Source: an uncultured Alphaproteobacteria bacterium
GTDB lineage: Bacteria > Pseudomonadota > Alphaproteobacteria > Rs-D84
Assembly: GCA_944389525.1 (NCBI GenBank)
Contig: CALXMR010000004.1
Span: forward strand, 1 to 64,000
Direction of reading: 5' to 3'
DNA length: 64,000 bases
Shown: positions 17,826-33,962 of the stretch, one piece after another
Layout of the letters: each line of letters starts with the position of its first letter
How positions within the stretch are numbered: the first letter of the stretch is position 1
The notes under the pieces: model-generated
Databases searched by the model: none
Seen by the model: only the letters and a program-made list of their open reading frames with translations
Told to the model about the DNA's origin: nothing
Translations under genes and position numbers: made by a program

Positions 17826-17893
17826 CAGAGTGTAGAGTACAGAGTTCAAAGTGCAAATGATGTGTCGCTGCGCGACAAGTTTTATTACCTGAA

Positions 17894-17955
17894 TCCTGGG
17901 GTCAAAATGCACCCCACAAAAACATTCGTTTTTGCGGGGACCCCGCGCCCCAGGA
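17894..17955. repeat. Nested palindromic element
   Basis: An outer inverted repeat (TCCTGGGG ... CCCCAGGA) encloses a second one. The inner arms are CCCCACAAAAAC and GTTTTTGCGGGG, separated by ATTC. The element can fold into a long two-storey cruciform or RNA hairpin. It lies in a non-coding stretch between the tol terminator and a small HTH gene and has the look of a dispersed REP or rickettsial-type palindromic repeat. Whether other copies exist cannot be judged from this window. Confidence 0.7.
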
Positions 17956-18002
17956 TGACAAGAGAAAATAATTATGCGGCCTCCCTCTAACGGGGGGATT
18001 TT

Positions 18003-18242
18003 TCACTGGTTGTGGCGGGTGGGTTCACGGTATGGTGCGTTTCTTATTGCCATCATTGTCCATGCACTGTAAAACATTCGTTCCAGCACAGATTCAGGAA
18101 TTAATTCTTTGCCACATTCGTATTTTAATAATTTTCGTGCGGGTATGTGCAGCATTCTTGCCGCATCGTTTCGTTTTATTTTTGCGGTTCTGCGTGTACG
18201 GCGTAATTTTTGACCGATGTATGAATTATCGACCAGTATCAT
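18003..18242 (-). CDS. Small HTH (XRE/Cro-like) protein
   Basis: The 79-residue basic protein has a Cro/C1-like helix-turn-helix pattern, IGQKLRRTRRTAKIKRNDAARML followed by IPARKLLKYECGKELIPESVL. The pattern aligns with helices 1-4 of XRE domains, although the second helix is atypical. A GGAGAG ribosome binding site precedes ATG. Upstream on the same strand lies a highly structured leader ending in an intrinsic terminator, so expression may be controlled by attenuation. Confidence 0.6.
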   Translation of the reverse strand: MILVDNSYIGQKLRRTRRTAKIKRNDAARMLHIPARKLLKYECGKELIPESVLERMFYSAWTMMAIRNAPYREPTRHNQ

Positions 18243-18270: not shown

Positions 18271-18302
18271 TAATAAAAACACCGCCGTGATTAAGGGCGG
18301 TT
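18271..18302 (-). terminator. Leader terminator upstream of the small HTH gene
   Basis: On the minus strand, ACCGCC/GGCGGT form a hairpin followed by GTTTTTATTA, about 30 bases before the HTH gene start. It can be an attenuator for that gene or the end of a small RNA. Confidence 0.65.
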
Positions 18303-18426
18303 GGAGGTTAACAACTATTAAAGGTAATAGCGTTGCTTATTCAATATATTCGCAACCCTCCAACCCGTGTTGGAGTAAAGCCTTTAAAGGGTTGTTAAGC
18401 CCCGCATTGGTAATCATCCAATGCGC
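18271..18426 (-). ncRNA. Candidate structured leader RNA or sRNA with alternative folds
   Basis: Read on the minus strand, this segment has a 7-bp hairpin (18424-18404). A long-range helix follows, of 8 bp (18398-18391 with 18315-18308) plus 7 bp (18387-18381 with 18324-18318). It encloses two further hairpins (18375-18358, 7 bp; 18356-18332, 5 bp), and the terminator comes last. The 3' arm of the 7-bp inner hairpin can pair instead for 9 bp (18365-18357 with 18307-18299), invading the terminator stem. A CATAAT -10-like box lies just upstream. This is riboswitch-like architecture; I match it to no known family. Confidence 0.5.
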
Positions 18427-18532
18427 GCTTATTATGACATATAAATGATTGAATTTCCAGTAATAAAAAATTTTGATTTTTTTGATAATAATGTGGTTGC
18501 CCTGGGGGTGGATTTTTTGCTATTGTCGGGGC

Positions 18533-32066: not shown

Positions 32067-33962
32067 ATGGCAAAAGTGTTAGGTATTGATTTAGGTACAA
32101 CTAATTCCGCCATGGCGTTCATGGATGGAACAGAACCGAAAATCATCGAAAATTCAGAGGGACAGCGTACAACACCATCTGTGGTTGCGCTGACATCGGG
32201 GGGTGAACAATTGGTCGGCATTACGGCCAAAAACCAGGCGGTTACAAACCCAGAAAACACAATCTATGAAATCAAACGCTTGATGGGGTTGCGTTATGAC
32301 AGCCCGGCGGTCAAAGAAATTGCCGCGCGCGTTCCGTATAAAATTGTTGCCGGTGATAATGGCGATGCATGGGTTGAAATGGATGGCAAGAAATATGCCC
32401 CGTCACAGATATCTGCGATGATTTTGGCAAAATTAAAGAAAGATGCCGAAGCATACTTGGGCGAAACAGTAACAGATGCCGTTATTACTGTGCCGGCATA
32501 CTTTAATGATTCACAACGCCAGGCCACAAAAGACGCCGGCCGTATTGCGGGTTTAAATGTATTGCGTATTGTTAATGAACCAACGGCTGCCGCATTGGCA
32601 TATGGTTTGGACAAGGATAAAAATGGCACGATTGCGGTGTACGACCTGGGTGGTGGTACATTTGATATTTCCATACTGGAAATTATCGATGGCGTGTTCG
32701 AAGTAAAATCGACAAACGGTGATACCGCGTTGGGTGGATCTGACTTTGATGCGCGTATTTTGAAATACTTGATTGATGAATTCAAGGCCCAGACGGGTAT
32801 CGATCTGTCAAATGACAAGTTGGCGTTACAGCGTTTGAAAGAAGCCGCAGAAAAGGCAAAAATCGAATTGTCGTCAAAGACGACAACTGATATTAACCTG
32901 CCGTTCTTGACGGCGGATGCCACAGGACCAAAGCACTTTAATACAACATTGACGCGGGCCAAGTTGGAATCGCTGGTTGATGACCTGATTCAAAAGACAA
33001 TTGAACCGTGTCGCAAGGCATTAAAAGATGCGGGTCTGGACAAAGGTCAGATTAATGAAGTTATCTTGGTCGGTGGCCAAACGCGTATGCCAAAAGTTCA
33101 AGAAACAGTCAAAGAATTCTTTGGGCGCGAACCGCACAAGGGCGTTAACCCAGACGAAGTTGTTGCGTTGGGTGCGGCAATCCAGGGCGGTGTGTTAAAG
33201 GGCGATGTCAAAGATGTATTGCTGTTGGATGTTACGCCATTGTCGTTGGGTATCGAAACATTGGGTGGGGTGTTTACGCGTCTGATTGATCGTAATACAA
33301 CAATCCCGACAAAAAAGTCCCAGGTGTTCAGTACTGCTGAAGATAATCAGTCGGCCGTGACAATTCGGGTGTTCCAGGGTGAACGCGATATGGCGGCAGA
33401 TAACAAACTGTTGGGGCAATTTAATTTGGAAGGTATCGCACCTGCCCCGCGCGGCATGCCACAAATCGAAGTGTCTTTTGATATTGACGCCAATGGTATT
33501 GTGCATGTGTCGGCCAAGGACAAAGGCACCGGTAAAGAACAGGCGATTTCAATTAAATCGGATGGTGGTCTGTCCGAAGATGAAATCAAGCGTATGGTTG
33601 ACGAAGCCGCCGCAAATGCCGATGCAGACAAGAAAAAACGCGAACTGGCCGAGGCAAAAAATGCCGCAGAAACTGCCATATTCAGCATCGAAAAGTCGTT
33701 GAAAGAACACGGTGATAAAATCAGTGCTGATGAAAAGACCGCTATTGAAGATGCCAAGAAAGAATTGGCGGACGAACTGGCAAAATCTGATGCCACCGCA
33801 GATAGTTTAAAGGCAAAGACAGACGCATTGGCAGAAAAAGCCATGAAACTGGGCGAAGCGGTGTACAAGGCGGCCCAAGAATCGTCTGCGGCGGGGGAAA
33901 ACGCGGAAAGCAAGTCAAATGACGATGGTACGCGTGACGCAGATTTTTCTGAAAAGAAATAA
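32067..33962 (+). CDS. dnaK: Hsp70 chaperone DnaK
   Basis: The 631-residue chaperone opens with [13 protein letters not shown]. It has the Hsp70 signatures [14 protein letters not shown] and [14 protein letters not shown] and the linker [15 protein letters not shown] before the substrate-binding domain. A helical lid and a charged disordered tail complete it. A GCAAGGAG ribosome binding site precedes ATG by 8 bases. dnaJ does not follow; the next gene lies on the other strand, so the usual dnaKJ pair is split here. Confidence 0.97.

Follow-up and report, generated by a model that had tools for sequence, protein, structure and literature searches.

A leader RNA family of gut Alphaproteobacteria with a conserved terminator overlap, remotely related to sRNA-Xcc1 and laid out like the phage C4 antisense system

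The window, the whole 64,000-nucleotide stretch of DNA analysed here, belongs to contig 4 of a 0.92-Mb alphaproteobacterial genome. It holds a leader element on the minus strand, flanked by the divergent gene dnaE (start 18533, plus strand) and a gene for a 79-amino-acid HTH_31 protein (18242-18003). The parts of the locus, in the direction of the leader, are listed here with the evidence for each.

18431-18459, minus strand: promoter-like site, TGGAAA and CATAAT 17 nt apart, the latter with a preceding TG (9 of 12 consensus matches)
18403-18425, minus strand: P1, 5' hairpin (fold; most homologues have P1, with altered sequence)
18388-18403, minus strand: P2 hairpin (both-side changes at 4 of 4 pairs)
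18398-18392, minus strand: PK1a, the P2 loop UUAACAA, counterpart of the C4 a1 target (PK1 covariation)
18381-18387, minus strand: P3a, a b1-like strand whose partner is the P7 loop (swap test)
18369-18375, minus strand: strand A, CUCCAAC, 5' arm of hairpin P5 and partner of B (A:B matching across copies)
18357-18365, minus strand: strand B, GGUUGGAGG (covariation and fold energies)
18332-18356, minus strand: P6 hairpin with the near-invariant 15-nt loop GAAUAUAUUGAAUAA (98.6% of cells paired; both-side changes at 5 of 5 pairs)
18315-18330, minus strand: P7 hairpin, CUAUU/AAUAG (92.5% of cells paired; both-side changes at 5 of 5 pairs)
18324-18318, minus strand: P3b, a b'-like strand in the P7 loop
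18308-18314, minus strand: PK1b, UUGUUAA, an a'-like strand whose partner is the P2 loop (swap and covariation tests)
18299-18307, minus strand: strand A', CCUCCAACC, alternative partner of B (fold energies, covariation and overlap counts)
18275-18301, minus strand: intrinsic terminator, ACCGCC...GGCGGU and a U-rich run (sequence and fold; kept across the family)
18003-18242, minus strand: putative regulated gene for a 79-amino-acid HTH_31 (XRE-type) protein (Pfam HTH_31, E 2.9e-6, over the cut-off)

The terminator stem comprises 6 bp (18301-18281) followed by the U-run, and the ATG at 18242 lies about 32 nt downstream. Strand B can pair with A, forming hairpin P5, or with A', forming an antiterminator that corresponds to the closing stem of Rfam RF02221; the terminator stem shares its 5' end with the last three bases of A'. 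The promoter-like site is weak by itself because two sites of its kind were found where 1.3 ± 0.9 were expected. Elsewhere in the window, at 17860-17990 between the TolA/TonB-like and HTH genes, lies a long imperfect palindrome, TCATCCTGGGG...CCCCAGGATT, that resembles a repeat element.

The first-pass annotation had proposed a minus-strand leader RNA at 18271-18426 with a 5' hairpin, a 15-bp two-part long-range helix around two hairpins, and a terminator. We confirmed that the sequence folds in this way, the helix parts having 8 and 7 bp, and that its fold energy is low relative to dinucleotide shuffles (z of -3.7; 1 of 200 shuffles was equally low). The proposed 9-bp alternative helix, GGUUGGAGG:CCUCCAACC, pairs exactly and takes up the three outermost base pairs of the terminator stem. 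In constrained folds computed without pseudoknots, the terminator state has -58.1 kcal/mol and the alternative -53.2 kcal/mol. An Rfam covariance search of the window gave nothing relevant at the gathering threshold or at E 10, in line with the absence of a match anticipated for this copy; a match to RNAIII (E 0.018) was discarded, being on the opposite strand and far under threshold. Chance folding of the window leader was ruled out by its homologues, described below.

By DNA search, most congeners hold similar sequence, in many cases at more than 10 places per genome. We built a covariance model, R1, from 42 copies and searched with it; copy counts from such searches are lower bounds per genome. 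R1 matched in 54 of 59 congeners, with at least 52 copies in one genome, and some Candidatus Enterousia genomes of about 0.9 Mb hold more than 50. Candidatus Enterousia is a gut lineage placed by NCBI in Alphaproteobacteria incertae sedis. Matches occurred in at least 171 of 190 genomes sampled across the order, and in 15 of 289 sampled class-wide, among them the window's genome and two congeners. Among the matches listed for the exact core pattern, the named genomes were solely alphaproteobacterial or proteobacterial MAGs, mostly from animal gut.

The copies stand before genes. With start codons picked by a simple rule, a downstream open reading frame starts in 137 of 142 parsed copies, at a median of 52 nt past A' (quartiles 49 to 56). 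Upstream of P2, a TATAAT box with at most one mismatch is found in 135 of the 142 copies, compared with 97 ± 5 in shuffles, and in 70 of them the -10 box starts 30 to 31 nt before P2. The claim of a minus-strand leader RNA in the window is supported. The genes that follow encode mainly small HTH proteins and secreted or surface proteins: at no fewer than 25 of 98 homologous loci, Pfam identified the protein encoded after the leader as HTH_31, and a crude rule assigned a signal-peptide-like N terminus to 70 of 131 downstream proteins, compared with 25% of background open reading frames. In other alphaproteobacterial orders, four copies (L240, L242, L249, and L251) precede proteins that look prepilin-like by eye, hinting at a surface-protein theme beyond Enterousia.

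Individual copies depart from the common pattern. A degenerate copy in the window's genome (L004; G000:C2 38201-38293, minus strand) has neither a B/A' complement nor a terminator, which suggests that old copies decay. A second dispersed repeat (TTGCGAGGGAGCAGCGCGACCGTGGCAATCC) follows the leaders at L023 and L144, and interrupts the terminator at L144. The window's genome also holds a deeply divergent extra copy on contig C3 (L425; G000:C3:31300-33400; 32281-32394, plus strand), found by RF02221 (E 5.7e-4) and not among the R1 matches listed. Its sequence reads GGTCGGGGGG...ATACAACAGGGACGCAAG...CCACCCGACCGCCAAATC...GATTTGGATTGGCGGTGTTTT, and its terminator overlaps A'.

We then compared the copies helix by helix, and compensatory changes were found in the homologues, as the leader proposal had predicted. 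Covariation was computed on 117 copies aligned with the covariance model, an alignment fitted to its four modelled helices (P2, P5, P6, and P7), in which both-side changes occur at 19 of 22 pairs. PK1, formed by the P2 loop and the strand before A', and B:A' lie outside the model and are independent tests. PK1 has 203 doubly changed cells, compared with 58 ± 5.5 when shuffled, and a covariation score of 0.640, compared with 0.179. For B:A', 96% of cells are paired and 18 are doubly changed, compared with 3.4 ± 1.6. In P3, a copy's own strands form a Watson-Crick run of 4.98 bp on average, compared with 3.33 ± 0.06 with strands of other copies. Covariation supports every helix, the two pseudoknot-like pairings included.

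This comparison changed the description of the 15-bp helix. Its pairing stands, but part of it is better described as the P2 hairpin, whose loop pairs downstream (PK1), together with P3, a helix that joins P3a to the loop of a further hairpin, P7. The resulting pseudoknotted arrangement is visible solely through homologue comparison. The P6 loop is the sole strictly conserved part, and the P2 loop, PK1, and P3 vary freely with compensation.

Each copy's strands fit their own partners best. Tested within genomes, the pairing of a copy's own strands averages 9.37, compared with 6.29 for other copies, and only 0.6% of pairings between different copies attain that own-strand average; each copy has a pairing address of its own. 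The swap and shuffle comparisons are not strict probabilities, since copies within a genus are related, a concern that the within-genome address test lessens.

A dispersed MITE-like mobile repeat without a regulatory role would account for the many copies per genome and their varied places. It would not account for compensatory changes in every helix, a near-constant distance to the start codon, or the promoter placement. We consider this explanation hardly credible and rejected it on covariation and position.

The terminator/antiterminator geometry seen in the window recurs in 142 parsed unique copies, far beyond chance. An intrinsic terminator follows A' in 139 of the 142, overlapping it by 3 to 4 nt in 124. 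B matches A' at no fewer than 7 of 8 positions in 141 copies and matches A at no fewer than 6 of 8 in 122, and this matching is kept across several covarying sequence sets (GGTTGGAG/CTCCAACC, GGTCAGGA/TCCTGACC, and GGCTGGAG/CTCCAGCC). The two mutually exclusive folds read from the window copy are therefore conserved: the 5' arm of the terminator overlaps A', and A' can instead pair with B, the inner-hairpin arm. Within the leader, B has two conserved, exclusive partners, and pairing with one of them uses up part of the terminator, itself conserved.

A constitutive leader, in which structure and terminator serve to hold expression at a fixed basal level or to protect the mRNA and nothing switches, would agree with the terminator state being the stabler fold and with there being no known trigger. 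Such a leader would have no need for the three-way matching among A, B, and A' or for the 3- to 4-nt overlap of A' with the terminator, both of which are conserved, and we regard it as very improbable.

The window copy gives no match to RF02221 (sRNA-Xcc1) even at E 10, and so falls short of its gathering threshold (53 bits), but intermediates join the two families. One alphaproteobacterial copy (L252) is matched by R1 (E 4.4e-7) and, at the same place, by RF02221 with 66 bits. RF02221 weakly matches two Enterousia copies in one genome (G083; E 6e-6 and 7e-5; 35 to 40 bits), and R1 weakly matches three RF02221 loci (E 2.9e-4 to 4e-3). Both types have, in the same order, a closing stem B:A', P6, P7 with a variable loop, and an a' strand before A', and both carry the signature AAUA...GAAUAA in the P6 loop. 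Read past the 87 nt of the Rfam model, RF02221 loci also have the P2 loop and P3a and likewise stand close to the gene, and in both types the upstream P2 loop and P3a pair with 3' strands. Judged by these sequence intermediates and the common layout, the window family is a remote relative of RF02221. The statement that the element belongs to no known RNA class accordingly did not quite hold: besides this relationship, its layout is that of the phage C4 antisense system.

C4 is an antisense RNA that RNase P cuts at the 5' end of the closing stem (PMC5320573, citing Hartmann 1995), and its a' and b' loops act at the target RBS (PMC5320573, PMC12197685). In phages P1 and P7 (RF01695), the order of parts is like that of the window family: a1 hairpin, b1, terminator hairpin, antisense core, gene. 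The two short pairings, a'/a1 and b'/b1, are also common to both, and the Rfam models c4-a1b1 (RF03163) and isrK (RF01394) match upstream in C4 loci. In the Enterousia type, upstream strands are complementary to a' and b' by both swap and covariation tests (own 7.16, compared with 4.62 ± 0.08 swapped). C4 differs in lacking the AAUA/GAAUAA loop; Rfam clan CL00128 includes C4 and omits RF02221, and R1 gave no sequence-model match to C4 (RF01695) loci. The kinship of the window family with C4 itself would be one of layout only.

RF02221 loci come closer to C4. Their P2-loop and P3a sequence is repeated directly before the start codon. In swap tests on 96 phage RF02221 copies, the 3' strands pair with their own upstream region at 7.53, compared with 5.81 ± 0.11, and with their own RBS region at 7.21, compared with 5.70 ± 0.10. 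At 60 phage RF02221 loci the downstream families are AntA (14), KilA-N (11), Bro-N (9), ORF6N (8), Rha (7), P22_AR_N (6), and P22_AR_C (18), all antirepressor-type. By these sequence comparisons, RF02221 itself is a phage C4 layout, with predicted targets upstream (a1b1) and again over the antirepressor RBS (a2b2).

The Enterousia type has neither the RBS target nor the antirepressors. No a2b2 target was found over its RBS (5.007, compared with 4.990 ± 0.066 swapped), and its downstream genes are of HTH_31/HTH_3 type or secreted, with no phage antirepressor among them. A terminator follows A' in 139 of 142 Enterousia copies but in 10 of 96 phage RF02221 copies, whereas a terminator-like hairpin upstream of B, at the P4 position, is found in 34 of 142 and 85 of 96, respectively. 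Strand A has no matched counterpart in phage RF02221, where 72 of 96 copies reach the same threshold and 62 ± 2.5 would by chance. Compared with its relatives, the Enterousia type has lost the RBS target, has its terminator moved from upstream of the core to directly after it, and has the competing strand A.

sRNA-Xcc1 was mapped as an 88-nt RNA (PMC2996969), which we infer to start at B since the Rfam model does, and Xanthomonas integron cassettes carry it upstream of symE (PMC12444791). We found no statement in the searchable literature that sRNA-Xcc1 is C4-like. The integron link and the inverted arms of the element raised an attC-like integron site as a candidate, which was rejected, the copies being dispersed single leaders at a fixed gene distance.

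The likeness to C4 bears on where the leader acts. The layout equals that of C4 systems, whose RNAs act in trans (PMC5320573, PMC12197685), and the a' and b' strands of a released leader could target a further copy of that leader instead of its own transcript, as autoregulation or as immunity to an incoming phage or element of the same address. The fit of each copy's a'/b' to its own a1/b1 would be expected if cross-talk were selected against, and a viral contig carries one copy of the Enterousia type next to tail genes (L235). We nevertheless think a C4-like antisense RNA acting in trans unlikely, as the defining RBS target a2b2 is absent and the downstream genes encode HTH regulators and surface proteins, not antirepressors. 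The private addresses would be compatible with a released leader acting back in trans on its own locus. The viral copy (L235, 12038-12172, plus strand), identical to another on IMG/VR viral contigs (L236), lies near genes for a tail sheath, a tail tape measure protein, and an endolysin, and precedes a gene for a secreted-looking protein, possibly phage cargo.

A small-molecule riboswitch, with the pseudoknotted core and conserved P6 loop as putative aptamer and the A/B/A' switch as expression platform, seems rather improbable. The fold is compact and pseudoknotted, its unpaired loop is near-invariant, the terminator platform is classic, with the mutually exclusive folds of an expression platform present, and many copies precede a coherent gene set (HTH regulators, secreted and surface proteins). 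Against this, the relatives are phage antisense modules, the P2 loop, PK1, and P3 that would matter to an aptamer vary with compensation, leaving only the P6 loop constant, and the genes have no metabolic theme.

The reading we favor, and hold to be fairly probable, is that the element is a cis-acting transcription attenuator whose family derives from, or shares ancestry with, a C4-type antisense module that stands before phage antirepressors and is known in part to Rfam as sRNA-Xcc1. Under this attenuator model, transcription would start directly upstream of P1, and the RNA would fold into a pseudoknotted core through pairing of the P2 loop with PK1b and of P3a with the P7 loop. When B pairs with A (P5), A' would be free, the terminator would form, a leader RNA of about 150 nt would be released, and the gene would be off. 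When B pairs with A', closing the core as in sRNA-Xcc1 and C4, the terminator stem would lose its outer half, allowing read-through into the gene. We infer that in the cell antitermination corresponds to B:A' and termination to A:B, and that the choice is regulated. The B:A' state would need help or kinetics, because the terminator state is favored by about 5 kcal/mol (without pseudoknots). Candidate triggers are a C4-like RNase P cut at the 5' end of B, a protein on the conserved P6 loop, the released leader RNA pairing in trans, and a small molecule.

Terminator/antiterminator riboswitches and attenuators work on the same principle, exclusive helices deciding an intrinsic terminator, but unlike them the window family has a pairing address private to each copy. 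The divergence of a' and b' between copies exceeds what a purely cis switch needs; this counts against the attenuator reading and could point to trans action. More tentatively, a phage immunity antisense module may have been domesticated and multiplied into a chromosome-wide attenuator set in genome-reduced gut Alphaproteobacteria, each copy with its own address, so that surface-protein and HTH genes are switched singly, possibly via released leaders acting on matching leaders.

These comparisons link three items that are separate in databases: a gut-bacterial leader family, sRNA-Xcc1 (filed as a virulence-associated "trans-acting sRNA"), and C4 antirepressor control. If the link is true, host and plant target predictions for sRNA-Xcc1 homologues would be misdirected, because the matched target sits in the RNA's own transcript. 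A phage switch would also have become bacterial gene control, deployed as many as about 50 times within a genome of less than 1 Mb. The leader family is large and previously unclassified, and it appears to have descended from a phage antirepressor antisense switch, now fused to a transcription stop signal.
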